Assembly: GCA_018902385.1 (NCBI GenBank)
Contig: JABSSW010000004.1
Coordinates: forward strand, 1,240,001 to 1,304,000
Reading direction: 5' to 3'
Source: Physcia stellaris
Taxonomy: Eukaryota > Ascomycota > Lecanoromycetes > Caliciales > Physciaceae
Length of the DNA stretch: 64,000 nucleotides
The notes beneath the pieces are model-generated. The model made no database searches and was not told the DNA's origin. It worked only from the letters and a program-made list of their open reading frames with translations. The position numbers and the translations under genes are program-made. This document shows, piece after piece, positions 14,936 through 59,300 of this stretch (positions are counted from its first letter, which is position 1; each line of letters opens with the position of its first letter).

Positions 14936-16368
14936 CTTCTATGGCTGTTATTGAGGTATGCTTGGACCGCCATGTTAAGCAAAGCCTTTCCTTGACGTGA
15001 TGATGGTGTATCTTGAACCTGCAAGATAACTGTATGTTCGAGTCCACCAGACGGTCGGAGCATATTTCAGCTTGCTAGAAATCCATTCTTAAAATAGCGT
15101 CAAGACCCTTCTCAGTTGTGAGATTTCATTTCTTCGCTGTCATTTGAACGCGTCATTGGATACGAGTGATCGAAGGGGGAAACGATCCTCAGGTACTATC
15201 CCTTGGTTTATCAACATGGCCAGCGCTGAAAACTCTAAACCCAGCATTAAGTGCCTAGCGTCAGGGTTGATATGAAAACCAGTAGGTCGTGATAGAGAAA
15301 TTCAGGGTTGATCTCAGGATTGAGTTGTATCACGCGCTAAGTACTACGTATCCAGCATTTTATTTCCTAATACGTCAAGGCTGCATGGGTCTCTCAGAGC
15401 TACACTCTCGTCTAGTAGCTTTCATATACACTTCGTATATTAATTTGTATGACAGGGTATCTTCATAGTTTTTCAACAACAGTAAAGAAAATGGAAAAAG
15501 CCCTGTTGTTGATTTCAAGCGATACAAATGAAAAGCACACGAATTATTGAGCAATATCTTTGATTCAATTGCACAGGCTGTATGGTAGATTATATGACAG
15601 CCAGCCTGTTAACTTGGGACCCCTTCTGGATTTTTCGTCTATCTCAGGGTCCTCTCTACCCCCTGCTGATTTGGCACACTAGGATATAACATGCTGGCAA
15701 TTTTGGCGACGGAATATAACAAATGAAAGTCATGATGTATGCAATGCGCATCGAGCGCATCAATGCGAGGCTAAGTATGCCCGCTGACTGATGAGTGTTG
15801 TATCTACACCGGACAAACGAAGTTTAGATACCTTGTAGGGGGCTTTGAGAGAGGAGCTGTCCGCAGAAAGATTGCAAAATGGTAATGCAAGAGGCGATGA
15901 AGCAGACATTGTTGGATTGGAAATATCGAATCATCTTCCTAAAATTCGGTCCCGCTCTCTGGCGAGCCTTTTTGTATTACCGGGATTCCGAGGCTTCAAA
16001 TCTACAGACCTTGCACAGAACAGATGGATGTTTGCCGAGGTCCTCCGCGCACCGGTCATCGAGGTCTCATCAGGTCATCGAGGTCCCTCAACTGCAGGTC
16101 TTCTTAAGTCATGGTCCCCCACTCACCCCCAACGAGCTTTTGGCCAGCCAAAGCGAGCTCACAGATCGAAGCTCGTTGCGATCCTAGAGCTAAGCCTCAA
16201 TTCTTCGAATCAACTGAGATATAGGACTTGAAGCTTATGCAGTATATCGATGTTACATCGGTCAAGACGTAGAATACAAGCGCATGTCATTTTCCCGGGG
16301 TTTTTTGACGACGCCATGAGTCTGACGCATACCTTATTTGACATGGGTATGAATCCGTGTTAAATGAA
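14936..16368. other. intergenic, nothing recognised
   Basis: No supported gene. The plus frame 15845-16231 (128 codons) has no domain and overlaps another frame. The sequence becomes AT-richer at about 15400-15600. Confidence 0.45.
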
Positions 16369-16448
16369 GGTAACCGGTATTTACACCTACCACTTCGGTA
16401 GACACACCTGCAGTCTCGGTATACACACCTTCAGGGCTCTAACTCTCG
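16369..16448 (+). repeat. left terminal inverted repeat
   Basis: This is the 80-bp arm of the 635-bp element. It contains subterminal iterations of ACACACCT/ACACACC that could be transposase-binding sites (inference). Confidence 0.9.
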
Positions 16449-16923
16449 AATAATGCTCGGATTCTCCTTCTGGAAGCCTGCAAAGCTCCTACCCGTCATG
16501 ACATGTTGCAAAGACCTCGGATTCGAACGATTCAACATGTATTGAAAGCTGTTCAACATTCATTGAAAGCTGACTTGTTTACAGAAGATGAGAGCCATTT
16601 AATATGATGAAATGATCGTTTTTTTCGAGCTTATCAATACATTCAATCATTTTCGTTCTTCTTGTCATCACGAGGTTTTCGAAACCGTCCTCGCTCTTCT
16701 CGTTCTCCTCGCTATCGCTAAATATCTCGATAGAATGATCGATGATCATGCTCTTGATCGCAATCAAAATGAAATCGACGTTGCCGATCGTTTCAGAGGC
16801 CGAAGGACTGTTTTCGGTCATGACGAGGTAAGTGGGTGGATAGGATTCTTGGTGTTTTGGCAAATTTTTCGAAAGTAAACAAGGCTCGGGACCCTGAGGC
16901 GACGATTTTGTGGTAGGGGTATC

Positions 16924-17003
16924 CGAGGGTTAGAGCCCTGAAGGTGTGTATACCGAGACTGCAGGTGTGTCTACCGAAGTGGTAGGTGTAAATACCGGTT
17001 ACC
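16924..17003 (-). repeat. right terminal inverted repeat
   Basis: Inverted complement of 16369-16448 with a single mismatch, close to the inner end of the arm. Confidence 0.9.
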
Positions 17004-17011
17004 TAAATGAA

Positions 17012-18102
17012 CCACATGTAGCTAGGCTGTTTAGAAATCCGAAAACAGAACTGGAGAGATATTTCTGATGTATTGTTCAATAAATGATACTAATCACTGT
17101 TATCATCACAATAATGTCAAGTCGATAGCACTTCGATATACCATCGACCGACATCGAATATTCGTTACGCCTTCTCTCTTTTCAGAACAGAGAACAAATT
17201 GCCCAGAAGAACCGCAATTCCGTTCTCCCTGCGTCTCCCCGCATTTCCCTGCATGATCTTGGCCATCGCGCCGAACATCTCCAATCGAATCGTTACTCCC
17301 AGCTTTTGGGGATAACACTACAGCTGTATCTAGTCGTGCTGCTCAGGTCCAGATTTATGAAAGCTCCCTCGCATTATCAGCACAGAGAAACCACATGCCT
17401 AATGGTACAGGGATGCTGCTCGCTACAGCATGCCGCAAGTAAAGGTCAACACGACTGCATTCGCGTAGTCCATGTGTGGCGTTTGATACACTCCTTCGCC
17501 AGAGTACATCGTGGTTCCAAGGTAGCTACGAAAGCCGATCAAGAACTCAGTATTCGGCTCAACTCACTCACCCTGATATGTTTACGTCAACTTCGGCCTT
17601 ACTCCAATACTCGCAATCAACTATTATGTATTTGTCCGTCAACAGTAAGATTGCAATGATGCTCCAGTAGGATCTTGCATCCGCCTCGACCGAAAGCAAA
17701 TCGACTATCAGGACTAGCATGGCGCCTTAGCAATGTTACATAACTAAGTTAGCTGAGATTTACCTCGTTGAATCGGATCTGGTTCTCTCGAGCATCTGCG
17801 TTGCTCCGCGCTGCAAAAGGTCCGACCACATGACATGCAGAATGTAGTCACCGTCTGACCCTGAAATCATCTACGATGGGCCAAGGTGTTCTCATGGCAG
17901 TCCAGGATGAGTACGGCACACACTTGAGTAGATGAATGTCTCCTACTGCACTTCGCTTGGTTGCATTTCTTATATGACTTCCCATGTGCGCTCGATTTCA
18001 ACCACCATTGCGCCTCGCTACCCTTGAGTCTTTCTTGTTTTCTATTAACTCTCCACGAAATCACAAAAGCCCCATCGTGTATCAATTTGAACCGACTACA
18101 CC
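17012..18102. other. intergenic, upstream of esterase relic
   Basis: No supported gene; only short overlapping frames. The last few hundred bases would hold the promoter of the 18103 gene. Confidence 0.45.
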
Positions 18103-20741: not shown

Positions 20742-21404
20742 TCAATGCGCTGGAGTAGAACTAGCAATTACGCCAACAGTCCGATAATATCGGTTGCGCG
20801 AGCGTATGCTGCAGAAAACTCTTCGTTCTTTAGCTTTTCTGACCTGACTAATCGGCGGCTTCTGATTGGTTACAGGCAGGAAGTAGGCCGTGATTCGTGA
20901 ATGATGTGGTTTAAGGGTTTGCGGAGAAGGACGGCGATATTGGTGCTGCGGCAGGCCAAATGGTCTTGGATTTTCAGCAAACATGTGAGTCAGGTCATCG
21001 ATTATGAAGTGAGGCCTCTGGGGTTTTCGAAGCATTGATGTAGATGTGACGAGCGGAGTAGGTAGAGGTGTAAGCGGTGTATTTCTCGGCCATTCTTGGG
21101 GCGTAAATGGCCTAGTAATGAAAAATCTTGTTCTTGTTCTTGTTGAGGTTGATTTTGGGGTTCTTGGTGGAGTTGTTGAGGTTGATGGTGAGGTTTTATC
21201 TGCCTCTCTATTAAAGCGAGGTCGCATCACTTTAATTACTTCCTTCGTTGGCGTGTCGTGATGTTGGCGGATGTGCTCGTGCAGCTTGTTATTTGAATCA
21301 AAGGTCTTCTCGCATTGCCTGCAAACGGCTTTTCGGTAGAGGCGGATTGAGTATGCTGCAATAGCTGGGCTAATGACGAAAAGGATGTAGAGCAATTGGG
21401 ACAC
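20742..21404 (-). CDS. C2H2 zinc-finger protein fragment, repeated family
   Basis: The minus frame is open for about 220 codons from 21404 to a stop at 20742, but the first codon is not ATG. The true start, or an upstream exon joined at an acceptor-like TTAGCCCAG, is unknown. It has one classical finger, CRQCEKTFDSNNKLHEHIRQHH, then a Thr/Pro/Ser-rich linker, then a block around FIIDDLTHMFAENPRPFGL and a terminal block with SRITAYFLPVTNQK. The same order of finger, linker, DLxxMF block and RITxYF block recurs in mutated form on the minus strand at about 36540-37400, so this is a multicopy family. I recall similar ORFs in ascomycete repetitive DNA. Function is unknown; nucleic-acid binding is the reasonable guess. 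This copy lies in normal-composition DNA and is not heavily mutated. Confidence 0.6.
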   Translation of the reverse strand: MSQLLYILFVISPAIAAYSIRLYRKAVCRQCEKTFDSNNKLHEHIRQHHDTPTKEVIKVMRPRFNREADKTSPSTSTTPPRTPKSTSTRTRTRFFITRPFTPQEWPRNTPLTPLPTPLVTSTSMLRKPQRPHFIIDDLTHMFAENPRPFGLPQHQYRRPSPQTLKPHHSRITAYFLPVTNQKPPISQVRKAKERRVFCSIRSRNRYYRTVGVIASSTPAH

Positions 21405-24912: not shown

Positions 24913-25764
24913 ATGTTCGTCAACAATCTGGCACTCGAGACTGCCCTCATTTTGACTGCCGATTACAAGAGCAGTTCCCTCTCCACTGACAAAACCGTGG
25001 CGAAGCATGCTCCATTTGACTGGGATGTTCTCGAAAGGCTAATGAAGGTCCCGGGGCCACGTGTGCTGATTCCTCTAACCGCAGAGGTCGAAGAAGTCTC
25101 CCCCTCCACCGGCATTTCCGTCGACAAGTGCAGCGCCATCTTCGTCGCTGAGGTATTGATGGTGTTGATTTCCGTTTTCGGCCTGATTTTCAGGCGACCA
25201 ATGGGCTTTTCAGAGTTGAGCTCGAGGCTTGATCTGCTTTTTCTGACAACAAAGATCGGTGAAGTCATTATCAACATCATTCGAACAGATTTCGTCAATA
25301 AGTGCAGCGTCATTTTCGTCGCTGAGAAACTGAAGACTTTTCCTCATGGTGTTACTCTTAGGAGACCAATTGGCCTTTCAGGGTTGAACTCGAGACTTGG
25401 TCTGCTCTTTCTGGCAGCAAAGATCGGTGAAGTCATTATCAACATCATTCGAACAGATCTCGTCGACAAGTGCAGCGCCATTTTCGTCGTTGAGATATTG
25501 ATGGTGTTGATTTTCGTTCTCGATTTGATTTTCAGGCGATCAATGAACTTTTCAGAGTTGGACTCGAAATTTGATTTGCTTTTTCTGGCAACAAAGATCG
25601 ATGAAGTCATTATCAACATCATTCGAACAGATTTCGTCAATAAGTGCAGCGTCATTTTCGTCGCTGAGAAACTGGAAATTCTTTTTCATGATGTTATTTC
25701 CAGAAGATCAAATGACTTTTCATGGCTGAGATCTGATTGTCATGATGACAACAGTGATAAATAA
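24913..25764 (+). CDS. repeat-built open frame over tandem array
   Basis: The ATG at 24913 opens 283 codons. From about residue 70 the frame is made of four tandem units of 56-58 residues, with recurring CSAIFVAE, LLFLATKI and EVIINIIRTD segments. The DNA units begin AAGTGCAGCG near 25126, 25300, 25468 and 25642, spaced 174, 168 and 174 bp. All spacings are multiples of three, so the frame survives. The order is A-B-A-B, a 342-bp higher-order unit. The antisense strand also has a long open frame through each half, so the coding strand is uncertain. The second A and B units carry many more C-to-T and G-to-A differences than the first. No known domain was recognised; it may be a plain satellite rather than a gene. 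Confidence 0.4.
   Translation: MFVNNLALETALILTADYKSSSLSTDKTVAKHAPFDWDVLERLMKVPGPRVLIPLTAEVEEVSPSTGISVDKCSAIFVAEVLMVLISVFGLIFRRPMGFSELSSRLDLLFLTTKIGEVIINIIRTDFVNKCSVIFVAEKLKTFPHGVTLRRPIGLSGLNSRLGLLFLAAKIGEVIINIIRTDLVDKCSAIFVVEILMVLIFVLDLIFRRSMNFSELDSKFDLLFLATKIDEVIINIIRTDFVNKCSVIFVAEKLEILFHDVISRRSNDFSWLRSDCHDDNSDK
25100..25760. repeat. tandem array, 174/168-bp units, 342-bp higher order
   Basis: Four units alternate between two types. Type A holds GTATTGATGGTGTTGAT and type B holds GAGAAACTG at the same place. The pairs A1/A2 and B1/B2 are more alike than A and B. Confidence 0.9.
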
Positions 25765-29589: not shown

Positions 29590-30139
29590 GATCAAAACGG
29601 TCGTCTTTTTAGGTCGTCTTTTTACGAAATATAAAGAAGAAAAAATAGATATGCATTGAAGAAAATATAAAACGAAGAACACAAAACATCATCAAACATC
29701 ATTTCTGAAATCTTTAATGATTTCTGATTCAAATGCAAAACGTTTTTCATCGATGCATAAAAATTGATCAATATTTCTGACAAAAATAATTCACGATCAT
29801 TAAGTTAATTTCATTCATCGACTTTAAAAATTCATTCAATCGTTATCTATTTTTGATTTGACAAAATGATTAGCAAATATCATGCAGACGCAAATATCGT
29901 AAAAAATTGAAAATACGACGTTGAAAAAAATGACGATTCAATATTATTTTCAAAAAATAACATTTTCTGTGAATGAAAATTACGTATGAAAAAAATATTC
30001 ACGCGACGTAAATGCATAAAATAATTAAATTCTAATACGATATAAATAATTAAAAAATAAAAATCGTAACGCAAAAACATTATTTTGATTATCGATAAAA
30101 TAATTTCACGCGATTTAATTTGCTGTTTTTGTTAAAACT

Positions 30140-30345
30140 TTACATCATTGAATTTTCATTTTTCATTTTATTTTCATTTTTTCATTTCGTTTTTTTTTTT
30201 CATTTTTTCAAGTTTTTTTTTCATTTTTTCAAATTTCATAATTTTTTATTTTTATTTTTTTCTTTTTTTCTTTTTTAGTTTTCAACTTTGTATTTTTCAT
30301 TTTTCATTTACAATTTTATCATTTTTCTTATCGAAAATTCGTTTT
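30140..30345. repeat. low-complexity TTTTTCA-type tract
   Basis: A pyrimidine-rich run dominated by TTTTTCATTTTTCA-like strings, with no stable unit. The 66-codon frame over it is all Phe/Ser and not a gene. Confidence 0.8.
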
Positions 30346-33289
30346 TGAATTATTTTCATTTCAACAAATTTCGAATTCATTTGAAATTCAAATTTTCTTT
30401 GCATTTCGTTTTTTTATGTTTATAATTTTCAAACAATATTACATGTTTTTGTTTCATATTTGCACATTCGTTTTCGTTATCAATGAAATCATTAACGCGC
30501 ATGAAAAAAACATTAACAAATTGTAATTTAAAACGCGATTTCGAATCGTTAATCATCAACGATGAACGCGAAAAGAAATGATTGATTTCGAATTTGAAAT
30601 CGATGATTTGAAACTGAAACGAATTGTTTAAAATAAAAAAATCGAAACGAAAATTGTCGTTAAAATTGAATCGAAAACGCGATTTGAAAAAAACGAAAAT
30701 AAAAATTTTGTAAAAATTGAAAAAAGAAAACGTTTTTGTGAAAAGAAAAAATGATTTGAAATGTCTTTTCAAATTGAATTTTTTTTGTAATTTTTGTGTT
30801 TTTGAACGTTTGAAAAATAAAAAAAATGACAGAATTTTCGAATTATATATAGAAAGTTTTCGAAATCGAAAATTGTTTGTATTGATTATTTTTTGACAAA
30901 TTTTGTCAACTCAACGTGTTCGATGACAAACGTGTATAAATGAAATAAAAATCGTAATGTAAAAAAATAAAATGAAAATTTGAAAATAGAAAAATGTTGA
31001 CAAATAAATGTAATATACAAATATACAAATTTTCGTTTGAGTCAGAAAAAATTTCAAAATCAAAAATTTTGAATTCATTCGTTATCGTTTGTAAAATGTT
31101 GCACAAAATAACATTCATTAACAAATGATCGAAATATCAAACAATTGTTCGATATTATAATTAAACGAAATGATTATCATTTTTGAAAAATAATAATTTG
31201 ATTTGTTTGATAACGAGAAAATTTTGTAATCAATTTTTAATATAAAAATTCAAAGAATTTTTGAATTAAATGTAAATTTGTCGAAGTCGAAATATGAAAA
31301 ACACGACAAATCAATCATGAAATTCGAAAATTAATACAAAAATTCGTTTGTTTCAAATTCGTTTCAAATTTCGTAATTCGATTTCGATTCATGAAAAATT
31401 CAAATGACAAAATTCAAAAAAAAACAAATTCATGAAAATTCATCGATCGATCGATTTTTCTGTTGAAAAAATAACGTTGTGTTAATTCAAATGACAAATT
31501 TTTGTGTGATTTTAAATATTATTGTTTTGTAACGTTCAATGAATTCAAAACGATAAAATCGAAAAACATATTATATTTCACAAATTTATGAAAGTCGTAA
31601 CATTAAATCGAAAATAATAAAAAAATGAATGAACATGCAAAATGTATTCAATTGATATTTTAAAATTGTAAAATATTCAAAATTCAAATCGACATAAAAT
31701 ATGATCGAATTTCGATAAAATCGAAATATGTATCATGATTATATGCAAAACAAATATCGAATTCGAAAAAATGTTGTTTGCATTTTTTTGTACAATAACA
31801 AACAATAAATCGAATAATTTGCAATTGAAATTTTTTATTTTTTTTATTCGTACATTTGTATATAACGAGAAAATAATAATTAAAATTTTTGATTTTTTAA
31901 AAATTAATCTAATTATCAATCAAAAATTATACATTTTTAATGTTATATTTCGTATTTTACATTTTAATTTTTATTATAATTATTAAATTAATATCATTCG
32001 TGTATATAGCACATCAAATTAACAACATGTTTTTTTTTCACGAATATCAATGAATCGATTTTTGATTTTTTAAAATCAAACGTTATTTCGCAAAAATATC
32101 GAATATACATTTAATAACAAATTGTTCGATATAAAATATTACGCAATCGAATCATTTCATTAATCGTTCAAATTATTTTAGTTAAAAAAAATCATTTTAC
32201 ATCAAAATAGTGAATGACAAATTAAATTTATTTTTAAAAAACAATTACAAAAAATGAATTCAATACGTTTGAAAAATGAAAAATTAATTCGACATAAATT
32301 AAACGAACGAATATGTCGATAATTCGAACAAAATCAATTTTTTTTGTCGTCATTTTTATGAAAAGAAAATTTAATGTTTAATTATAGAACACATTCTATA
32401 AAAAAATATTTATCGTTTTTTTTACAAAAAGTTTATTATCTTATTGAATTAAATCAATCTTGACGAAAAACATCAAAGTTTTGATGCAATTTCTTCGCAC
32501 ATTGCACATTAATTAAAAACTTGATATGATTTTTGTTTATGTAATCAAAATTGTAAAATTCAATGAGAAAAATTCAATGTTGCAATATTCGTTGAATTTT
32601 GACGTGAACGCATTGAATCATTGAAATGCGAAATTTTGATCGTATCAATTTCAATTTCAACTTCATATCAATTCAAACAAAGTTTTTTTTAAAAAAACTT
32701 TCGAGTTTATTTGTTGTAAAATGTTAAAATCAAAAACAATTCAAATAAAAAATATACATGAAAAAAATATGTTGATTTTTTCAAAAAAACATTCAAAAAA
32801 TTTTCATTAAAAAAGAAAACAATTTTTAAAAATATAAAAATTATACACAACGAATCAATTAATCGATAAAAAATTACGATGCATATCGTATTGTTTTCGT
32901 TACGAATTTGTATTCGATCATGAAATTTTCATTTGCAATAAAATTACAAAATTTCATTTTGAATTTCATTTAAAATAATTAAAACTTTTTCGCAAAACAA
33001 AATATCGAAAACAACAAAAAAGAAATTTTGAAACGTTTCAAATATCGAAAAAATAACGAACGTAAAAAATAACGCAATACAAACAAAAATAAATTTAAAA
33101 ACGATTACAATAAACGCAAAAATGACGAAAAAAATTTCGACAAAAAAAAAACAAAAATCAATGTCGATTCAACAAAAATCGAAAAATAAAAACGATAAAA
33201 AATTCAAAATTAATAATTTTAATCAAAAATCAATCAAATTCAAAAAATTATGACGTTGAATCAAAAACGAATTCAAAAATATTATAAAC
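30346..33289. other. AT-rich, unidentified degraded sequence
   Basis: I could not assign this stretch. Its right part probably belongs to the gag region of the Gypsy fossil that follows. No LTR boundary could be placed. Confidence 0.4.
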
Positions 33290-34985
33290 AACAATAAATG
33301 CAAAAATTGCGATAAATCGAATTTTATTTTCAAAAATTGTAAAAACAAAAAATCGAAAAAACATACATGAAAAATAGCATTCGATTCAAAATCAAAAAAA
33401 TAATCGATTTGATGATTTTCAATCAAATTGACACAACGAAAAATTCTATATTGAATGACGAAATTGATTTTAATTTTGACGAATCGTTTACGATCGATAT
33501 CGAAATCAAAAACGTTAAACGTTGTCGAAAAAAATTTCGCATAACTAAATGCAAAAAAACAATGATAAAAATAAATAAAAAATCAAACGAGAAAAACAAA
33601 TTAAAATTCGAAACAATCATGAATTCAAAAACAAAAATCAATTTGATAAATAACATTTTTGTTAAACAATTCGAATTAAAATTATTCAACGTGTTTAATT
33701 GCGAAACAATAATTATCGATAATCATTTTTTCAAAATTTATGATGTTTATTTTGAACAATTCGAAATGTAAAACGAAAACGATGTGAATCGTTTTTTCAA
33801 TAATAATTTTTTAAAAACGAATTTGACATGAAATATAACGTTAAATTTATTATGAATGCAATTATCAAACGCAAAAATAGATTGAAAAATTGACAAAATC
33901 GAATCGTAATCATTGATTGTAAAATCAATTTTTTTTATCGTAAATTGTATCGAGAAAATCGAATCAAAAAAATTAATCAACGTTGTCATCGATAATAAAA
34001 AACAAATTTTTGTTATGTTCGTACGAATTTTTCATGACGAGAAAAAAAACATGAATAACGTACACATCGAACGACGAACACAAATTAATTCGATTTTTGC
34101 GAAATGAAAAATGAATCAAACATCAAAATTATTATATTCGAAATTTTGAAAAAATTCGTTAATTTGACAAATGAAAACAAAATATACGAATAATTTGATT
34201 ACGAATTAAACGATCATGTTATTGATTTAAAATTAAACAAAAAATCTTTTTACGATTTTATTTATTCATTGTCAAAAAACGAATTTAAAATATTACGAAT
34301 TTATTTAAACAAACATTTAAAAACGATTTCATCAAATTTTTCATTTTTTCAATCGAAATATCGATTCTGTTCGTCAAAAAAAAAACGAAATTTTGAAATT
34401 ATGTGTAAATTGCAAAAATTTGAATTTTTGACGATAAAAAATAAATATTCTTTGTCGTTAATCGATGAAAATTTAAATCGTTTGAACAAAATTCGCATTT
34501 ATACAAATTTCGATATAATAACAATATACAATAAATTACGTATTAAAAAAAAACGAATGAAAAACGACGTTCAAAACACGATATGAATATTTTGAATATA
34601 TCGTTTTATTTTTCGATTTTATTAATGCATTTGCGACGTTTCAAAATTTTGTTAATAAAATTTTGATCGAACGATTCGATTTCATTGTTATAATTTATTT
34701 GAACGATATAATTATATATTTCATGAACGAAAAACAATACATCGAAAACGTCAAATAAATATTAAATCGTTTGCGAAAACATAAACTTTTCATCAACATG
34801 AAAAAATGTAAATTTTTTAAAAACAACATTGATTTTTTAAATTTCGTTATATTTTCAAAAAAAATACAAATGCGAAGAAATAAAATCGATGTTATACAAA
34901 AATGATCGACGTTCAAAAACGTATCAAAAATTTTGAAATTTTTTGAATTGTGCAATTTTTATAAACGATTTATTAAAAATTTCTA
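33290..34985 (+). mobile_element. Ty3/Gypsy LTR retrotransposon fossil, partial
   Basis: Parts in order on the plus strand are a gag-end zinc-knuckle-like segment (about 33297-33350), an aspartic-protease region (about 33600-33990) and a reverse-transcriptase region (about 34260-34980). The order fits Ty3/Gypsy. The element is broken in many places, heavily AT-shifted and ends abruptly at the GC island. No LTR pair was found for it. It looks old. Confidence 0.65.
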
Positions 34986-35190
34986 TTGAAAGAATCATGA
35001 GTGACTATCATTCTATTGCTCTGAATCTCGTTGTTCTAGTAAGTTACATGCAGGTGGGAGCACAAGAAGTGTGCGGATGCCAAGGCACTAGTTCCAACAA
35101 GGACGCACTAGTCCTGCTTTCGTCAGGTTATACCAAGTGGATCCTGACTGCAGCACCTGCACAGCACACCTGCGGAGGCTGTATTTCCAA
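34979..35190 (+). repeat. unmutated copy of 0.2-kb direct repeat
   Basis: Starts CTATTGAAAGAATCATGAG and ends GTATTTCCAAC. It aligns without gaps, by eye, to 38090-38300 in the same orientation. Confidence 0.9.
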
Positions 35191-35244
35191 CACTCCCCCA
35201 CAGCAACCGCTTGTGCCACCTGCCCTGTATCCTAACGAGCCCAG

Positions 35245-35371
35245 CCTGGAGCTTCCGTGCAAGCTCCCCAGCGATGTAACTCCCCAGCGATGTAACTCCC
35301 CAGCGATGTGGCCCCCAGCGATGTGACTCCCCCAGCGATGCATTGCCTGGAGCTTCCGAGCAAGCTCCCCC
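35245..35371. repeat. 16-bp minisatellite with flanking repeat
   Basis: CAGCGATG starts at 35269, 35285, 35301, 35316 and 35333, giving five units of 15-17 bp with CTCCC spacers. The array is bracketed by two copies of CCTGGAGCTTCCG(T/A)GCAAG, at about 35245 and 35346. Confidence 0.9.
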
Positions 35372-35971
35372 AACCTGGTATGACGTAGGTCCTAACGGGC
35401 TAGGCCATACACCGATGCGAAGACTGCAGAAACGAACGAATCGAGGTCCGATTACCTGTTGGCGTTCAGATGTGACGTAAGGCCGAAATGTAAGGCGTGC
35501 GACCGAGCATCTGAAGGATTGCGACGTTCTGGGTTTCTCCATGAGGTAAAGCATCGATGTGAGATCCGGTACCTAGAATTGGATGGAAGGTATATCATGG
35601 AGCAAGTACCAATTGCCTGAGTAGTGCGATATTGACGAGAGTGCGGGTCACACCATGATCTGGAAGCATCATTGTGGATTTCAGGGTTCTCAGGTACTTT
35701 TTGCGACATCAATGGTTCAATCCTTATGTAATTTGGCTGTAGGAAGTCCATAAGGTATGCCAACGATGTGGGACAGACAGAAAATGGTCGAGAAATCGAT
35801 AAGAAAGGAGTGTACCGATGTAAAGAGTGCAGATTCGGGCTTTTCGGTTCTGACTAAGTCCTGCCAGAGAATCAGGTCGATTAGTATGCGAAAAGGTCAG
35901 ATATCTCCAGCACTATTTGTCCTTCTTGATCGAGTTCCTGCTCTGCAAGGCCGGGTATGTAATATGGCTGC

Positions 35972-36059
35972 ATAGTACGCTCCCCCGAAGCGGTACTATG
36001 TGACTCTATCGAGTTCCGAGTGTGTAATGACTGGATAGTACGCTCCCCCGAAGCGGTAC
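35972..36059. repeat. duplicated 25-bp hairpin-like motif
   Basis: Two identical 25-bp copies (35972-35996 and 36035-36059), 63 bp apart, contain AGTACGCT...AGCGGTAC. The arms can pair with one bulged G around a CCCCCGA loop. Function is unknown. Confidence 0.85.
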
Positions 36060-36539
36060 AATCTAGTCTGTTCCTTCTCTTCTAACAACTGTTCGTACAG
36101 TACGTCAAGTACGACGACTGTACTCATTCTCTCTCTTTCGTATTTATCGGGCGACTAAGTCTCAAAAATAGTAAAAAAAGAAACAATTGATTAGTCGTGT
36201 TAGATCAAAACGAAATCACAACAAAGATAAGTTTTTATCATATTCGTTAAACAATAAACAAACAAACAAAGCATACAACAACTTGTAAAACTTTTTCAAA
36301 TCGATGATAGAACGAAAAAAACGAAACATCGAATTCATTAAAACAACAACTTTTAGCTTTTTCAAATCGATCAACGATTAATAGAAAGAACGAGCGAGCA
36401 AACAAACAAACAACATGTTAATTTTTTCAAAGTAATGATTTCGAAAAGATCAATACTTTTTCAAAGTAAAATGAAGAAAAACGAAACGTCAATAACGTTG
36501 TTTCATGAATATTTCATTATTTTCAACTTTGAAGACATT

Positions 36540-37400
36540 TGACATAACTCAATCGATAAATCGATAAATGACAAAACGTTTTTGACAATGTTTGCAAACA
36601 GAAAATGAACGCGAAAATGTCGAAAAAAGAAACGCATCGAAGCAAATCGAAAAAAAAAAATAAATGAAATCGAAAATCATCGCGAAATCGAAAATTGACG
36701 CGAAACGTTTTCGCGAACATGTGTTGATTCAAATGTTTCGAATTTGATCGATTTCGAAACAAATGAAATCGTCGCATGAAAATATGACGTAATGCGATTT
36801 TGTATGAAATCACATTTGTTTGCGAAATTGCATTTGTCAAAATCGCGAAAAGAAAGCGAGCGCATTTGATGTCGTTGCAAATCAAATGAATTCGACTTTT
36901 CAACGAATATGCGAAACAAATCGTTTACGATGAAATAAAATCTCGATGCAAAAGTTCGAGACGAAGTAGACGAGCAAATAATGTTTGCATTTTTCGAGAA
37001 TTTGCACATCGATTTGAATGTCGCAATCGAAAAACGAGAAAGTTTCGATGCAACGACTGATCGTGAGACGATTTCTGTTCAAGATATCGACTTTCTTGAT
37101 GTTGCAATCGACGAGAATTTTGATGAAATAACTGATGACTCGATTATTGATTTCGATGATGCGTTTTCTGAACGTTCGCGTACAATTTCTGATGCGAGCA
37201 TCGAGAGAAATAAGAATTTCGACGACGAGAAAGATGAGAAAATTATCGATTCAGATGACGAAACAGAAAAAATAAAAAATAAAACAACAGACTCAACAGA
37301 TTGTTGAGCAGACTGTTTCGATTTTTTCGCATGTCGATTGCGAATATGTTCGTGTAACTTGATGTTGTTGTCAAATTTGATCGTTTTGCAACGTTTGCGA
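36540..37400 (-). mobile_element. degraded copy of the C2H2 repeat-family ORF
   Basis: Reading on the minus strand, a finger-like segment ending KLHEHIR lies near 37330-37390. A block with VNDLFRIFVEKS lies near 36900 and one with NRITSYF near 36770. The order and the motifs match the 20742-21404 copy. The copy is broken and AT-shifted. Whether it belonged to an LTR element or another mobile element is not clear. Confidence 0.55.
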
Positions 37401-38089
37401 CGTATATTTTCTCTGCTCGTTTTTGAGCTAATCGAGTTTTTTCTTTTGTTTTAATAATTTCTTCGTTTTCTGTTTGAGTTTGTTTTTGATTTTCGATTCA
37501 TGTTTACGCATCAAATAATTCTCTTGTGCTTTTTTTGTTTGAACGAATCAAGCGCACTTTTGATTGATTTGATTCTGTTGATGTTGCTCGTACAAACATC
37601 GAAAATTTTGCGTTATTGACTTATTCGCGAATATGTCATTGACTGAAATGCAAATGCATAGAAAAAAAAATCAAAAAAGAAAATCAGATGCGAATTCGGA
37701 AATGAACGATGCGAAACTCGCAAAAAAAATACGAATCGTCATTCTGACTGAGTGATAAATAGATTTCGCGTAGAAATTCGATATCGTAAATACGCGAATT
37801 CGTGACGAATTCGAAAGATGAATGTTTCGAAAAGCTCGTAGATAAATGAATAGATAAATGTTATCGATGTAATTGAGAATGTATCAAGATATTGAATATT
37901 GCTCGATTGCAATTGAGTCGATTTCTGATTTGACAAGATTGAATATTTCATTGAGTTGATATTGTTGTTGTATTGCAAATCTGTTGTATTTCGTGCGATT
38001 AATTACTATTGTTCATGACGTGTTTCGACATGTTGTTGCTGTAATTGATACTAAATGTAACGAAAACTGTTAATTCGATTCTCATAATC

Positions 38090-38300
38090 TATTGAAAAAA
38101 TCATGAATGATTATCATTCTATTGCTCTGAATCTCGTTGTTTTAGTAAGTTACATGCAGATAAGAGCACAAAAAGTGTGCGAATGTCAAGACATTAATTT
38201 CAACAAAAACGCATTAATTTTGTTTTCGTCAAATTATATCAAGTGAATTTTGATTGCAACATTTGCACAACACATTTGCGAAAATTGTATTTTCAACAAT
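38090..38300 (+). repeat. mutated copy of 0.2-kb direct repeat
   Basis: Gap-free counterpart of 34979-35190, with about 38 transitions in about 200 bp and essentially no other change. It ends where similarity stops, near 38299. Confidence 0.9.
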
Positions 38301-43929: not shown

Positions 43930-44560
43930 AAATTAATTCATAAATAAATATTTTTATTCATGTACGAATAAATTGAATATTATTTACAATAGAAATTTAT
44001 TTATGCACGATTAAATAAATATTCATGCACGAATATAATTTAATTGATGCACGAATAAAATTTATTTAATACACGAGTAAAATTTAATTTATGCACGAAT
44101 AAAATTTAATTCATACACGAATAAAATTTATTTGATGCATGAATATAATTTAATTTATACACGAATATAATTTAATTCATGCACGAATATAATTTAATTT
44201 ATGCACGATTAAAAATTATAATAATAAAAATAAATATTCATGCACGAATAAATTTAATAATTCTAACAATACAAATTAACTTTTACACGAATCAATTTAA
44301 TTCACGCACGAATAAAAAAATATTCGTGCATAAATAAATAAATATTCGTGCATGAACAAAAAAATATTCGTGCATAAATAAATAAATATTCATGCACGAA
44401 TAAATTTAATAATTTTAACAATACAAATTAATTTTTACACGAATCAATTTAATTCACGCACGAATAAATAAATATTCGTGCATAAATAAATAAATATTCG
44501 TGCATAAACAAAAAAATATTCGTGCATAAATAAATAAATATTCATGCACGAATAAATTTA
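43930..44560. repeat. TGCACGAATA minisatellite with 152-bp higher order
   Basis: Dense iterations of TGCACGAATAAAATTTAA, and of its partial inverse TATTCGTGCATAAATAAATA. In the right half a 152-bp higher-order unit recurs, starting ATTCATGCACGAATAAATTT at 44236, 44388 and 44540. Confidence 0.9.
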
Positions 44561-44649
44561 ATAAATTCAATAATAAAATTTTAATTTTTTTGCAATATAT
44601 AAACAACGAAATTTTCTTTGTAATTTTTTTTCAATCATTCACATTTTTT

Positions 44650-44939: not shown

Positions 44940-45102
44940 GTTTTTTCATTGTTGCTTTATTGCTTTATTGTTATATTGTTTTATTGTTTTTTGTTTATTG
45001 TTTATTGTTTTATTGTTTTATTGTTTTATTGCTTTATTGTTTTATTGTTTTATTGTTTTATTGTTTTATTGTTTTATTGTTTTATTGTTTTATTGTTTAC
45101 GT
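44940..45102. repeat. (ATTGTTTT)n 8-bp tandem repeat
   Basis: Near-perfect 8-bp units, longest between about 45008 and 45100, with a few GC-containing variants (ATTGCTTT). It sits just upstream of the OrsD-like ORF. Confidence 0.9.
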
Positions 45103-45144
45103 TCTTATTTCTATTTGTTTCATTAAAAAAAACAATTTTTGAAA

Positions 45145-46405: not shown

Positions 46406-46624
46406 TTTCAAATTAACAAAAATAAATAACAATTATTTGCAATCATAACATGATTCGATCAATAAAAATTTCGACATTCAAAATTTTAAAAATTTAAATT
46501 ACACGCGTGTCGCAATGTCGAAATTTTCATTAATTGCATATTTTTGTTTATGTTTACATTTTTGTATTTTTTCAAAATGTATCATGTATTAATCAAACAA
46601 TTAAATTGTTTTTTTATGTTTGAA
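46406..46624. other. AT-rich spacer
   Basis: Short stretch with a palindromic-looking ATTTCGACATTC / GAATGTCGAAAT-like arrangement around ACACGCGTGT near 46503. No gene. Confidence 0.4.
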
Positions 46625-48475
46625 AATTTTTTTCAAATTATTTGTTGTAACAATCGTAACATCAAATTCAACGATCGCAATATTTAATTTTTTTGTAATA
46701 TTTTTTTCATTAAACAAATTTGCAAAATTTACATCAATGTTTGCAATGATCGTCATATTTACATTTTTTTTTATATTATAACAAACATTTGTTGCAATTA
46801 TCGCAACATCAAATTCAAAAATCACGATATTTATTTTTTTCGCAACATTTTTTTCATCAAACAAATTTGCAAAATTTATATCAATGTTTGCAATAATCGT
46901 TATATTTACATTTTTTTTATATTATAACAAACATTTGTTGCAATTATCGCAACATCAAATTCAAAAATTATAATATTTATTTTTTTTGCAACATTTTTTT
47001 CATTAAACAAATTTGTAAAATTTATATCAATGTTTGCAATAATCGTCATATTTACATTTTTTTTTATATTCAAACAATCATTTGTTTCAATAATCGTAAT
47101 ATCAAATTCAAAAATCACGATATTTATTTTTTTCGCAACATTTTTTTTATTAAACAAATTTGTAAAATTTACATCAATGTTTGCAATGATTGTCATATTT
47201 ATATTTTTTTTATATTTAAACAATCATTTGTTTCAATAATCGTAATATCAAATTCAAAAATTACGATATTTATTTTTTTCGCAACATTTTTTTCATTAAA
47301 CAAATTTGTAAAATTTACATCAATGTTTGCAATGATCGTTATATTTATATATTTTTTTATATTATAACAAATATTTGTTGCAATCATCGCAATATCAAAT
47401 TCAAAAATTACGATATTTATTTTTTCGCAATATTTTTTTTATTAAACAAATTTGCAAAATTTACATCAATGTTTGCAATAATCGTCATATTTACATTTTT
47501 TTTATATTATAACAAACATTTGTTACAATTATCGTAATATCAAATTTAAAAATCACGATATTTATTTTTTCGCAACATTTTTTTCATTAAACAAATTTGC
47601 AAAATTTACATCAATGTTTGCAATGATCGTCATATTTACATTTTTTTTTATATTATAACAAACATTTGTTGCAATCATTGCAACATCAAATTCAAAAATC
47701 ACGATATTTATTTTTTTCGTAACATTTTTTTTATCAAACAAATTTGCAAAATTTATATCAATGTTTGCAATGATCGTCATATTTACATTTTTTTTTATAT
47801 TATAACAAACATTTGTTGCAATTATCGCAACATCAAATTCAAAAATTACGATATTTATTTTTTTCGCAACATTTTTTTCATTAAACAAATTTGTAAAATT
47901 TATATCAATGTTTGCAATAATCGTCATATTTATATTTTTTTTTATATTTAAACAATTATTTGTTTCAATAATCGTAATATCAAATTCAAAAATCACGATA
48001 TTTATTTTTTTCGTAACATTTTTTTCATCAAACAAATTTGCAAAATTTATATCAATGTTTGCAATGATCGTCATATTTACATTTTTTTTATATTTAAACA
48101 ATTATTTGTTTCAATAATCGTAATATCAAATTCAAAAATTACGATATTTATTTTTTTCGCAACATTTTTTTCATTAAACAAATTTGTAAAATTTACATCA
48201 ATGTTTGTAATGATCGTCATATTTACATTTTTTTTTATATTATAATAAACATTTGTTGCAATTATCGCAATATCAAATTCAAAAATCACGATATTTATTT
48301 TTTTCGCAACATTTTTTTTATTAAACAAATTTGCAAAATTTACATTAATGTTTGTAATAATCGTCATATTTACATTTTTTTTTACATTATAACAAACATT
48401 TGTTGCAATTATCGCAACATCAAATTCAAAAATCACGATATTTATTTTTTTCGTAACATTTTTTTTATCAAACGA
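46625..48475. repeat. 13-copy satellite, 146-147-bp period
   Basis: The landmark ATCAAATT occurs at 46661, 46808, 46954, 47101, 47247, 47394, 47539, 47685, 47832, 47979, 48125, 48272 and 48419. The spacing is 145-147 bp. Each unit also has TTTTTTTCGCAACATTTTTTTC-like and CAATGTTTGCAAT segments. Two subtypes interleave (TTGTTGCAATTATCGCAAC and TTGTTTCAATAATCGTAAT). Long minus-strand frames over it repeat a 49-residue pattern where the period is exactly 147 and break where it is 146, so these are not treated as genes. Confidence 0.95.
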
Positions 48476-48959
48476 TTCAATATTCGTGTTTATATCATTT
48501 AAATTTCACGAAATGATGTCGAAAATTTTATTTTCGAACACATCATTTGTCATATCATTTGTAATATCAAAAAAATCAATATTTTGAATCGAAAAAATCA
48601 CGCGCAACTGTTGTATCAAATTTTAATTTTTTTGTTTTTGTATTTTTTTACATTAAATTCATCATGTTGAAAAAGCGTGTTCAAAAATGTTAAACAATTT
48701 ATTGTTGAAAAAATTTCAAAATTCATATCGTTGAAAAAATTCGTTTTGAAAAAGTTTCAAAATTTATTGTTTAAAGAAAAATGTACACAAAAATTTCAAA
48801 TCGATTTTGTTAAAATTTTGAACAAACATCACAAACAAATTTCGTGAAAAAATGATTGACAACACAATTTTTCAAATATTGTAATCGAAATTCAATTGTA
48901 CAAATCGATCAATTGAAATTAACGTGTTGACATTACATTTCAATGCATTTCATTTTATT
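48476..48959. other. AT-rich, nothing recognised
   Basis: No repeat unit or domain was seen. Confidence 0.4.
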
Positions 48960-53310: not shown

Positions 53311-56300
53311 TTGAATTTTTATCGCTCGTGATACGCGAACGTTCAAAAATAAAATTTCAAATCGATCAAATTTTTCACGTTAAAAAAAACAAACGACGAA
53401 AATTTTTTTGACGAGAAAAAACGACGAAAATCGTGTAATTACAAATCGAATTTACACGCAAACAACGAATTTTCGACGATAAAAAACGACGAAACGACGA
53501 CGATTTTTATCGCATTTTTTTTATTTTTCGAAATGATTCGAAAATCATGCAAACAATTTCATTCAATTCATTTCGTCAAAATTTGAATATCGACAAATAC
53601 AAAAAACGTTCAAATGTTGACGAAATTCACGAAATCGATGAAAAATTCACGATTCGTTACAAATTTCGTAACAATTTTTTTATTTCAAAACGTTGTGTCG
53701 AAGAAAACGACATTGTTAAAAATCATCATTTTTGAACATAAAAATTGTTCGTTAATTGAAATATTGAATTCAACATCATTTCGAAATTTTTTGAACGTGT
53801 TCAATTTTTACGCATCGATCGAAACAAATATTCGATCGTTTTAAAAAATTCACGAGTTCGTCAAGTTGTTCAAAATTCAAAAAAAAATTTATTCGATATC
53901 GATAATATTTTACGAGCAAATACGCGACAAATTTAAAACGTTCGAAAAAAAATCACGAATTTGAATTAACTCGTTGACAAACGTATGAATATGACGATTT
54001 GATTAAATTAAATAAAATTCATCGTTTTAAACGTGTTTTTAATTTCGATTCAAATGAAAATTCAAATAATATTGATGTTAACGAAAAAAATTTGTTGATG
54101 ACGATTCGATCGTTACAAATTTTGTTAAATTTTCGAAAAAAAAACGCACGAACAAACATTCGAATTTCGATAAATTCACGAACGATATGAATTTTGATTG
54201 ATTCACGTAAAAAATCAACGTTCACGATAAATTCACGATCAACAACGATTGATACGAAATTGTTCGATTCATGATCACGACAATAATTGACTGAATTGAA
54301 AAAAAAACAGTCAAACATATTCAATCTCGTCGATATAACAATTTGAATTATTTCGAAAATGAAATAATGATAATCAATTTTTTCGAAAACATTTATGAAA
54401 ATTCAAATCATCAACGCAACGTACGTCGAAAATATGAAAATTTGATCATGTTCGACATTCAAAATTTTCAATTTTTTTATTCGAATTTTTATCGTTTAAA
54501 TATTCAAATCAATTTCGATCAATTCATCTTGATAAAAAATTTGATTGACAAATTCATCATGTCGTTAAAACAAATTTTGAACAATTCGTTTCGTCATCAT
54601 TTTTTTTGTTCGCGTGAAAAAATGACATTCAACAAATTTATAACGATTTGATCAGCATTCGAAAAAAAAAACTCGAATTCGAATTCAAAATCAATTTTAA
54701 TGATTTTCAAATCGACGTTTGTTGTTTCGATTGCAACATCGTTCGTCAAATCAATCACATCGACGTTTTTTGTCAAATTCAAAAACGATCATAAATATGA
54801 TTTTGTCACGAATCAATTGATTGTCACGAACAAATGTTTCACGTGTGAAAAATTCGATCACATTTGAAAATTCTGTTTCAACGTCAATAAGTTTCAAAAC
54901 GTCAATGACATAAATTACAAATACATCAATTGAATTTCGATATCGATTCGAACGAATTTGATTCGAAAAATTGACGATTCACGTCAAAAACGCGATTGAT
55001 AAATGTTTAAAAATTTTTTTATTCACGATGATAATATGTTTGATTTTTTCATCAAACGATTTCTAATCATCATTTGTACGTTATTATTCAACGATAATAA
55101 ACATAAATTAAAAACTTTAATAAACATTGATGCAATTGATTATGCGTTCATTGATAAAAAATCGCGCAATTTGTATGCAACATGTTGAACATGAAATTCG
55201 TATTTTTATTGAAATCGAAATTATTGATTGAATTCGACGATCGTCATGTTTTTTTTATAATTCACGCGATATATTTCAAATTGACGATAAAATTACATTT
55301 CGAATTGATCGTTTTTTTGTTAATCATTGATTTCGATAATCATTCGATAATTTTAGAAAAATCGTGAATGAACAAACATGAAATTATATTGAACATAATT
55401 TACGATAAATTGATTTTTAAATCGTTCAAATGCAATTATCACGACAACATATTCAATCAAACGATGCAAATTCGTCGTTTAAAAATTTTCAAATCAAATC
55501 GTCGATGAAATATATTTAATTGACGTCGCGATGCAAAATTATCGCAAAAAAATAATACAAAACACATAACGACGATGAAATTTCGATATATCATTTTGTT
55601 TCGTTTCAAAATCAAATTTTTATTTTTTATTGTTGAAAACGAATCAGATATAATCGATTCGAAATGTTTCGAATGTTCAATTCATTCAAAAATCGATATC
55701 GACGACGAGTCGTCAACAATCGAATCAAATAACTCAAAAATTGATATTACGACTGTTACGAAAACGACATTCGTCAAAAAAAAATTGAAAAATCAACGTA
55801 ATAAACAATGAAAAACGAAAAACAACAATCAAATTTCGTTATTTTCAGAGTTGAATTCTGACGATTCGATAAATATCGCAATAATTGATGCAATTTTTTT
55901 TGTTTGTTAATCGATGTCAAAAATCGAAAACAAAACGTTCAATGTTTTTTTATTACGATCAATCAAATCGATTTCGCGTTCAAAACATTACAACGAATTT
56001 TGAATCGTTAAAAATCGTCGTCATGATCAAAAAAATTTTAAAACACGAACAAATCAAATCGATATTCGAACGCATAATGAAAAAAATATCAAAATATTTT
56101 CGTCATTTATCAAAAATATTCGATTTTCAAAAAATTATCAAATTGTTTTTTCACAAATTATATGATCATAAAATCGAATTGTTGAACGATAATAATTTTT
56201 TATTTCGCAATCGAATGTATTTTTTATTCGAATTCAAATTCAAAAAATTCAAAAAGTATTTGAAAAAAAATTTGCAAAAAAAATTTATCGTATTTAATCA

Positions 56301-59300
56301 AACGACGTATGTTTTATTTGTTTTATTTGCGATCAAATTCAACGATCAATTACGTTTGTGCGTGAATTATCGTCGATTCAATCACATCACAAAACGAAAT
56401 CGATATTTTATTTTTTTGATCGAAAAAATTTTGATCAAAATTCAAAATTGCAAATATTTGATCAAGCTGAATATCATATCGATTTTCAATAAATTTCGAA
56501 TGAATGAAAAAAATGAAAAATTCATCACGTTCGTCACTTTTATGAAATCGTATAAATATCGAATATTATTTTTTGAATTAATCAACGATTTTGCAAATTG
56601 ACAACATTACATGAATGATTTTTTGTTCAATTTTTTGAACGAGTTTTGTCAAATTTATTTGAATGACATATTCATTTACAACAAATTCAAAAAGAAACAT
56701 ATCGTGCACGTTCGAACAATATTGAAAAAATTCAAAAAAATCGATTTACAAATAAATATTGAAAAATGCGAATTTTTAAAAAAAAAATGATTTTTTTTGA
56801 CGTTATATTTTCGATGAATGATTTTCGCATGAATTCAAAAAAAATGCAAATCATAATTGATTGAACACGTTTTATCAATTTCAAAAAAATACAAATTTTC
56901 GTGAATTTCGTCAATTTTTATCGACGTTTCATTCGTGACTTTTTCAAAAAAATCAAAATTTTCATTCGAATGATCAAGAAATTCGTAAAATTCGAATGAA
57001 AAACGAAAACAAAAAAAATTTTCAATTTATTCAAAAAAACGATAATCGAAATTTTCATATTTCGTCATTACGATAAAATCAAACAAGTCATTTTAAAAAT
57101 CGATTTTTCAAATTACGTCAATGCGAAAATGCTATCGCAATACGACGACGAAAAAATTTTACATTTCGTTGTTTTTTACAATCGAAACATGATTTCAATC
57201 GAATGCAATTACGAAATTTATAACAAAAAATTATTGATCATCATTCGTTGTTTGAAATATTGACGTTCAAAATTCGAAAACATTGACGAATCGATTAAAA
57301 TTTTCATCGATCACAAGAATTTGAAAATTTTCATGATTTCGAAAAAATTAATTTTTCGTCAAATTCGTTGAACAGAAATTTTATCGAAATTCAATATCGT
57401 CATTCAATTTCAATCAAAAATTCAAAACGTTAAAACAAACGTTTTAATTCGCATGTCGAATTCACGATTTAAAAACGATAACGATAAACGACATCAATAT
57501 AAAAAACAAATATTGTTCATTTTAAAACGATTCGAAATTCATGTCGTCGAATTTGACGAATTAATTTACGAACGAGTTTTCGTCGTAAACAAAACAAACG
57601 ACGATTGTTAAACATATCGTGAAACATTCAATCAAAATTTCATTTTCGTGAATAAAATCAATTTACGCGATTGTCAAAAAAAAACGATGTTTTATATTAC
57701 AAAATCGATTATGAATGTTCGTCGATGTTTTTTTTGCTCGTTGATTTTTTCAAAAAAATTCATGAATTTTTCGCATCGAATCATTTTGAATTTAATCGCA
57801 TGAAAAATTTTCTACGTCGTGATTATTATTGATTCAATATGCGCAAAACAATTCGTCGATACGTACGTAATTGTCACGAATATCAACGAATTAAAATTTT
57901 CAAAAATCGTAAAAACGAATTATTTATTTTTTGATCATATTTTTGCAACGTTGAACGAATATATTCATTGATTTCATCACGAAATTATTTGACGTTCACG
58001 ATCATAATGTCATTTGCACGATAATCGACAAATTTAATAAAAACGTCATTATGCATTTTGTACAACGAAGAACGAAAACACAAATGTTAAAATCATAACA
58101 AAATATTCATTCAATACGTTTTTCGTATTCATGATTTATTTTTTTATAACATTTGATCGAAATTTTCAATTCGTGTTTTTCGTATAACAAACTTTTTTGC
58201 AAAATTCTCGACATCAAATGTAAGTTTTTCACGATTTTTTACTCGAAAACTGATAATCAAATCGAGAAAATCAATCAAAACATCGAGAAACAATTGCGAC
58301 AATACTGCAATTACATGCAAAACGATTGAAACGTCTGATTATTTATGATCGAATTTACAAACAATAACGCAATTTTTGCATTCATTGAATTATCACTTTT
58401 TTTCGTCAACAAGAATTTTCATTTTCGTATGAGTTTTTCATCGAATTTTATTTCGTATGTTACGACAAAGAAACGATTTTTGATCGTTAAAACGAAAAAC
58501 ATTACGAACACAATGCAAAACATTTTCGATTATGTACGAAATCACGTCGAAATAATTCAAAAACGCATGACGACACAAATCAACAAACATCGCAAAATCG
58601 TCGAATACGTCGAAAAAAATTACGTTTTTTTGAATCGACGAAACATCAAAATCGTTAAATCATTCGACAAATTTGATGACAAAAAATTTGATTCATACAA
58701 AATGTTAAAACGTATGAACAATTTTTATCAATTTGAATTATTTGAAACAATGCGAATTTATGATGTGTTTCATTGCTGATTTTTGCGCAAAAATTTTTGT
58801 GATTTTTTCGAAAATCAAATCAACGAATCATTCGATTTCGTTGTAATCAACGAAAATTTCGAATGAAAAATAAACGACATTTTAAAATTTCGATATCATT
58901 ACGATCGTTTTCAATATCGTGTTAATTGATCAAATTGATCACATAATCGAATTTGATATTACGTCGACAACGAAAAATTCGATAATGTTCGCGACGTGAT
59001 GAATGATTTCATCGAAATCATTTTCGTCGTCGCAAATTCGAAATCATTCAAAATCACATTTTTCGTTTTTCAAATCGTCGATCAAAATTTTGCGAATCGT
59101 CGTCGTTTTCGAAAAAAATCGTCGTTTTGACATTCATTGAAATTACGTTCGATTAAAATCTGAAAATTTTAATCGAATTTGAATTCATTTTGATTTTTCA
59201 TTCGTTTCAGAATTTTTTTTTTCAATTTCAAATTTCATTATTATCGTTTCGACGTTATTTACAATCAAAATTTACGTCGCATGAAAAATTGAATCGTATT

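Follow-up and report, generated by a model that had tools for sequence, protein, structure and literature searches.

A mutation process in the genome of the lichen-forming ascomycete Physcia stellaris (Physciaceae, Caliciales) converts C to T in repeated DNA in the order CpC > CpT >> CpA, CpG, the last two being changed at or close to the background rate. The process is a form of mutagenesis like repeat-induced point mutation (RIP), with a new specificity. It is described here from a stretch of 64,000 nucleotides (C4:1240001-1304000, hereafter the window), and the CpC/CpT pattern is strong and widespread across the sampled parts of the genome. We consider it probable that an enzyme resembling the C5-methyltransferases of the RID family mutates duplicated DNA at CpC first and CpT second, in a RIP-like manner. 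The assembly analysed comprises 43.97 Mb in 147 contigs. The published assembly, from an axenic culture raised from ascospores, has 46.57 Mb in 184 scaffolds with a G+C content of 43.32% (PMC7513301; here and below, statements taken from cited papers refer to the accessible parts of their texts), and the analysed assembly, being smaller, may have been filtered. Repeat-induced mutation is not mentioned in the accessible text of that paper.

Within the window, positions 34982-35192 and 38088-38298 (both on the plus strand) align without gaps at an offset of 3106, with 39 differences over 211 positions. This homology had been proposed in an initial annotation, made from the letters alone, whose ends are slightly refined here and whose counts by eye (20 changes at CpT, 17 at CpC, one at CpA and none at CpG) agree with our recount of 21, 17, 1 and 0 to within one site. 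From the first copy to the second, all 39 differences are C>T or G>A, the one-way change that had been claimed, with no transversions and no reverse changes, and both strands are mutated about equally (C>T 19, G>A 20). Relative to the sites available, mutation affected 17/18 CpC and 21/33 CpT, while the claimed sparing of CpA (1/39) and CpG (0/10) was evident. Cytosines followed by a pyrimidine (CpY) were thus mutated at 38 of 51 sites, compared with one of 49 followed by a purine (CpR; Fisher p = 3e-15). The first copy is lightly mutated and opens a GC-balanced repeat (family D15) that extends to about 36170, whereas the second is heavily mutated, with 38 of its 39 C>T changes at CpC or CpT. 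Chance similarity between the two segments, which would have undone the claim, does not account for the pattern, because independent repeat families on many contigs show the same one.

The GC-balanced element at 34979-36170 (plus strand) is a younger copy, in the form of an end fragment, of a high-copy retroelement-like repeat inserted within older mutated DNA. For this repeat (family 1), a search that scored 40 of 210 candidates matched at least 67 pieces across the genome, with some copies split. Contexts were counted in 30 copies, including that of the window, each compared with the majority of the copies. In the six copies with G+C below 0.48, mutation had reached 317 of 747 CpC sites (42%), 150 of 875 CpT (17%), 50 of 892 CpA (5.6%) and 15 of 579 CpG (2.6%), so that in partly mutated copies CpC is preferred over CpT. 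The corresponding values in the 17 copies with G+C of at least 0.50 were 6.3%, 3.1%, 4.1% and 1.7%. The left 1.5-kb flank lies below 35% G+C in 20 of the 30 copies (L005-L034), and insertions therefore tend towards already decayed DNA. By eye, a gag-like zinc-finger frame in antisense orientation adjoins other copies of the repeat.

The same signature is present in three copia families, for which 13 stretches were chosen from 137 RVT_2 matches. The cleanest pair (L057>L056) has mutations at 48/51 CpC, 51/77 CpT, 1/94 CpA and 0/79 CpG; 99 of its 100 C>T changes are at CpY, and transversions are absent. Likewise, L049>L054 gave CpC 81/85, CpT 57/74, CpA 5/91 and CpG 10/99, and the pairs L051>L060 and L051>L061 gave CpC 45/48 and 47/48 with CpT 68/84 and 73/82. 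L058 and L059 are both saturated, with CpT at 11/17 and all CpC gone. No context bias was seen in L053 against L051 (91% identical, 17 C>T). The comparison of L050 with L049, only 58% identical, was left out (CpA 18/74, CpC 57/79, CpG 34/82, CpT 47/65). Tabulation of transitions by 3' neighbour in other repeats, the check that the initial annotation had proposed, therefore returns CpC first and CpT second in family 1 and the copia pairs, with CpA not the leading context.

Saturated DNA shows the end state of the process, in which C precedes almost only A or G. Across AT-rich 500-bp bins, present in 23 of 32 loci (one of which, L005, is the window itself), the observed/expected ratio (o/e) was 0.02 for CpC, 0.17 for CpT, 1.31 for CpA and 3.54 for CpG. 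The window itself divides into compartments of 47.4% and 23.3% G+C, with ratios in its gene DNA of 0.92 for CpC and 1.03 for CpT. By dinucleotide count, the AT-rich DNA at 30000-34970 is devoid of CpC and GpG (CpT o/e 0.14, CpG 4.1), and that at 38300-64000 retains 6 CpC and 15 GpG in 25.7 kb (o/e of CpT 0.09, CpA 1.5, CpG 3.8 and TpA 0.47). As a rough inference from the published G+C content and these two compartments, AT-rich DNA would make up about 17% of the genome.

Relics of transposon genes carry a corresponding bias in their stop codons, tallied from transcribed match tables. The 137 RVT_2 matches (150 of 165 candidates scored) contain 401 TGA, 101 TAA and 3 TAG, with four matches free of stops, and the RVT_1 relics (150 scored of 527 candidates) contain 250 TGA, 33 TAA and 3 TAG, with ten stop-free. 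A dominance of TGA is expected where CpC mutation on the other strand turns TGG into TGA; CpA-directed RIP would instead yield TAA and TAG from CAA, CAG and TGG.

The preference for CpC is not a by-product of earlier mutation of the next C, since CpC sites were mutated although their 3' C was kept, at 118/118 such sites in the four copia pairs and at 328/1025 in the ten family-1 copies of lowest GC (CpT in the latter, 197/1451). CpC is itself a target. The 5' base has a small effect: after A, C, G and T, CpY was mutated at frequencies of 0.82, 0.85, 0.86 and 0.89 in the copia pairs and 0.25, 0.23, 0.18 and 0.25 in family 1. The effect of the second 3' base is also small, with CpCpC somewhat lower.

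The change from gene DNA to mutated DNA was abrupt at all four edges examined, occurring within roughly 50-250 bp as located by a method that seeks one change point, with some of the four showing a step of a few intermediate bins. In the window, a change-point scan places this boundary at 29650, where CpY falls from 12.2 to 1.2 per 50 bp. The four edges, together with the near-expected CpC ratio of gene DNA, would be compatible with a sparing of such DNA, the AT-rich side being defined by composition and not by repeat status. Strand coordination was analysed in 20 copies with at least 15 CpY changes and was significant overall (combined p = 0.006 for switches and 0.0005 for imbalance). Strand switches were significantly few in 4 of the 20, and strand imbalance was significant in five, with 59:10 in L031. 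In view of the abrupt edges and the one-strand runs of some copies, events that strike many sites on one strand of a delimited stretch, as in RIP, fit better than slow random deamination.

As in RIP, C:G to T:A changes occur on both strands of repeats and RID homologues are present, here as two RID-type genes; the CpA preference of classical RIP is absent. In C5-methyltransferases the rule of choice concerns the 3' base. We propose that duplicated DNA is the substrate of a C5-methyltransferase-like enzyme of the RID family, which selects cytosines with a 3' pyrimidine; these would then become T, either directly or by methylation followed by deamination. Through successive rounds nearly all CpC and most CpT would be lost, leaving DNA of about 20-25% G+C. 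More tentatively, the specificity may come from a divergent RID paralogue, RID2 (C6:791557), and not from the canonical RID or DIM-2.

The genome was searched with PF00145 for the RID/DIM-2-like methyltransferases that the initial annotation had envisaged, and the four matches correspond to three genes: a DIM-2-like gene on C3, the canonical RID (RID1) on C5 and the RID-type RID2 on C6. RID1, for which a public gene model of 932 aa exists (P0121), matches a public P. stellaris protein at 100% and carries the motifs SPPCQFFSDAHT and LEQTSG, and its active-site sequences resemble those of other lichens. RID2 reads by eye as three exons, with the two TGA of the matched region lying in presumed introns, and carries the motifs SPPCQSFSPAQ and MEETFG. 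With the RID/Masc1 methyltransferases it shares the PF00145 domain, the PCQ motif with the catalytic Cys, the motif Glu and a tree position among RID-type rows; it differs from them in its separate clade, its altered active-site flank, the MEETFG motif and its shortness, the extended N-terminal region of RID1 being absent. The residues that follow the catalytic Cys, which in C5-methyltransferases form the mobile catalytic loop region, are GKDDDMNTAS-like in RID1 versus KPEDFEDKQAVI-like (KPEDFEDKQ-type) in RID2. This changed stretch is a plausible place for an altered choice of 3' base, although the relation is one of correlation only. Pfam finds the methylase domain alone in both RID types, with no BAH Pfam domain in RID2, and RID/Masc1 proteins are stated to be without a BAH domain (PMC7862722).

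In a quick tree of 164 columns, with rows drawn from the best 120 of 3080 and the best 120 of 150 hits, RID2 falls in its own clade of 34 rows (98*) among RID-type rows and apart from the canonical lichen RIDs. The outgroup was one far DIM-2-like sequence, which carries a long-branch warning, and P0030 and P0036 were left out. Among the matches listed, the other rows of the clade are 42-96% identical to RID2. One of them comes from Heterodermia, where a canonical RID is present as well (P0001 and P0131, sharing the prefix Q9195). When the RID2 clade was combined with other RID rows into a profile, this matched the structures of DNMT1 and HhaI/HaeIII. Short RID-type proteins are also found in Teloschistales and Lecanora (P0043, P0059, P0066, P0087, P0120, P0113), at a tree position away from RID2, and Loekoesia and Calogaya have both short and long RID-type forms. 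RID2 would be the best candidate for the enzyme.

Several observations weigh against an enzyme of the RID family with CpC/CpT specificity, or against RID2 as that enzyme. CpA is slightly raised in the low-GC family-1 copies (5.6% v 4.1%), although not significantly (p = 0.06), and reaches 11/88 in L060 and 15/88 in L061, both measured against an indirect reference. Some AT-rich stretches are weaker, with a CpT o/e of 0.71 in L011 and 0.62 in L033 and a CpC o/e of 0.24 in L010. The 101 TAA stops of the RVT_2 relics are unexplained by CpC mutation alone, and 14 of the 20 copies in the strand analysis show neither a significant deficit of switches nor a significant imbalance. RID2 is tied to CpY mutation solely by its presence in the same genome, where canonical RID and DIM-2 are present too. 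Furthermore, we infer both the premeiotic timing of the process and its dependence on duplication. Finally, CpT changes have repeatedly been reported for ordinary RIP genomes, and a CpT preference alone is for that reason not new.

One special case of the proposed explanation is that the canonical RID on C5 has itself shifted to CpY, RID2 having another role. RIP in Neurospora needs RID (PMC4352252), and RID1 is present in Physcia; however, its active site is like that of other lichens and RID2 is the unusual enzyme, so we regard a shift of RID1 as rather unlikely. A little less likely again is a route of the DIM-2 type, by which the DIM-2-like enzyme would methylate CpC and CpT in heterochromatic repeats, with slow or mitotic deamination and no homology scanning. 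The gene for such an enzyme is in the genome, Neurospora crassa DIM-2 is reported to prefer CT for methylation, which also counts against a RID-family enzyme, and Zymoseptoria tritici Dim2 promotes mitotic CpA>TpA changes (PMC8016269). Against this, the abrupt edges and the one-strand runs suggest delimited multi-site events, and CpC, the top target in Physcia, is not the DIM-2 preference given in the accessible text of that paper.

Of the two enzymes offered by the initial annotation, a divergent RID-type methyltransferase fits, and one is in the genome, whereas a deaminase of the AID/APOBEC type does not. Such deaminases read the 5' side, and their editing of repeat DNA or replication intermediates was set aside as very improbable because the 5' base matters so little here. 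C>T changes on both strands and the genome's eight matches to the PF00383 deaminase family would be compatible with such editing; an APOBEC_N (PF08210) profile search of the genome gave no match, but the control genomes gave none either. Two further readings can practically be dismissed, namely ordinary CpA RIP viewed at saturation and a general mutation bias of heterochromatin towards AT. AT-rich isochores are typical of RIP, but CpA and CpG are enriched rather than depleted (CpG 3.5-fold) and partly mutated copies lose CpC first.

The annotated claim of a specificity unlike classical CpA RIP is upheld by the window pair, family 1 and the copia pairs alike. The RID-family process proposed here shares with classical RIP, known from N. 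crassa and most Pezizomycotina studied, the both-strand C>T changes in repeats, AT-rich gene-poor islands and the RID and DIM-2 genes, and differs in its order of targets and its mostly TGA stops. In N. crassa the reported order is CpA>CpT>CpG>CpC, nearly the reverse of that in Physcia; in Trichoderma reesei CpA~CpG come before CpT>CpC, with one sign illegible in the text (PMC5496416). CpA, CpT and CpG signatures were described by Amselem et al. 2015, who tied CpA and CpT to RID/Masc1 genes (PMC4352252). Strong CpT changes have been reported for N. crassa Tad1 and, without CpA, for short rDNA repeats of Stagonospora nodorum (PMC2621366), and CpT was the dominant form where control fungi capable of RIP were examined by alignment (PMC7882544). 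CpT>TpT changes are also shared with the CpT-signature RIP of Magnaporthe, Botrytis, Sclerotinia, some Colletotrichum families and Anisogramma; there, however, CpA is mutated too, at least in other families, and CpC is not given as the leading target in the accessible texts. Monilinia has CpA-type RIP with CpC>TpT double changes (PMC8959702). Repeat-associated C>T mutation outside CpA is likewise known as TpCpG mutation in Microbotryum and as CpG signatures of other basidiomycetes, but CpG is targeted there (PMC4352252) and spared in Physcia. Cladonia rangiformis, also a lichen fungus, has DNA divided into sharp compartments, one local GC peak lying near 16%, together with homologues of RID and DIM-2 and strong RIP, for which the main text, as accessible, gives no context (dinucleotide, CpA, CpT and TpA were not found in it; PMC12542154). 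A search of the open-access literature found no report of CpC-first RIP, subscription papers being outside its scope.

A survey of 1,239 fungal genomes concluded that a preference for CpA is common to RIP-like defences (Badet and Croll 2025; PMC12543289). A CpC-first process breaks this rule, and the two common indices would score it as no RIP. Indeed, both standard RIP indices score this DNA as not RIPed at the thresholds quoted in PMC6180176, as the initial annotation had anticipated. A practical index for such genomes is (CpC+GpG)/(TpC+GpA), which is 0.715 in gene DNA and drops to 0.007; (CpT+ApG)/(TpT+ApA) falls from 0.891 to 0.025. Physcia moreover offers a natural pair of RIDs, one canonical and one divergent, on which to test how RIP selects its targets and its still unsolved catalytic step.

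The window also contains a decayed reverse transcriptase fragment (55885-56598, plus strand), Ty3-like by eye, which is free of Trp and open in the ordinary code. It has 70 relatives, several with PF00078, and 69 of them are ENA proteins (P0240-P0308). Gly is absent from 68 of these 69 and Pro from 62, against means of 5.3% for His+Gln and 5.2% for Arg. Read from these compositions, the loss of CCN and GGN codons with retention of CAN and CGN is the mark that CpC/CpT mutation leaves on proteins. P0282 (5 Gly, 2 Pro) and six more rows with one or two Pro are exceptions, and so is the JGI relative P0309, a distant match with 5.2% Pro and 4.9% Gly. In this sample the imprint is seen again in further assemblies and element lineages; the sample is no measure of its frequency, being biased because open frames alone get recorded and the query itself was such a frame. 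In 36 of the 69 ENA relatives Trp is present and Gly absent, although both need a GG step. Since CpC mutation turns TGG into TGA, gene prediction may have translated TGA as Trp (code 4). It is conceivable, though we would not rely on it, that the RID2 clade represents a second, separately evolved RIP enzyme of CpC/CpT specificity in many lichen fungi, leaving TGA-interrupted transposons that evade the usual indices and lead gene callers to this reading. A change of the genetic code was considered and set aside; open runs of 150 codons or more at 38300-64000 numbered 29 with TGA ignored (8.6 in shuffles) and 27 with TAA ignored (13.3), which is not decisive on a code change.

Other repeats of the window were noted. 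The AT-rich DNA contains, at 46611-48521, a tandem array of 11 copies of a unit of about 147 bp (spacing 146/147/291), the length of a nucleosome or of 49 codons, and the minus strand has a repetitive open frame there (47562-48101). Tandem 22-bp units at 43966-44594 form long inverted arms that are 70-78% complementary (I2-I13), and an array of the 8-bp unit TTATTGTT lies at about 44949-45104. At 16357-16452 and 16920-17015, in DNA of ordinary G+C (~0.45), is a 96-bp inverted repeat, 93% complementary, whose length may be below the trigger of the mutation process. An open frame at 24913-25764, in the GC-balanced half, contains a segment of about 170 bp that occurs three times, the repeats being 61-86% alike, and the minus strand at 20742-21404 encodes a C2H2 zinc-finger gag-like frame, similar by eye to the antisense frames beside the family-1 copies L006, L012 and L020.

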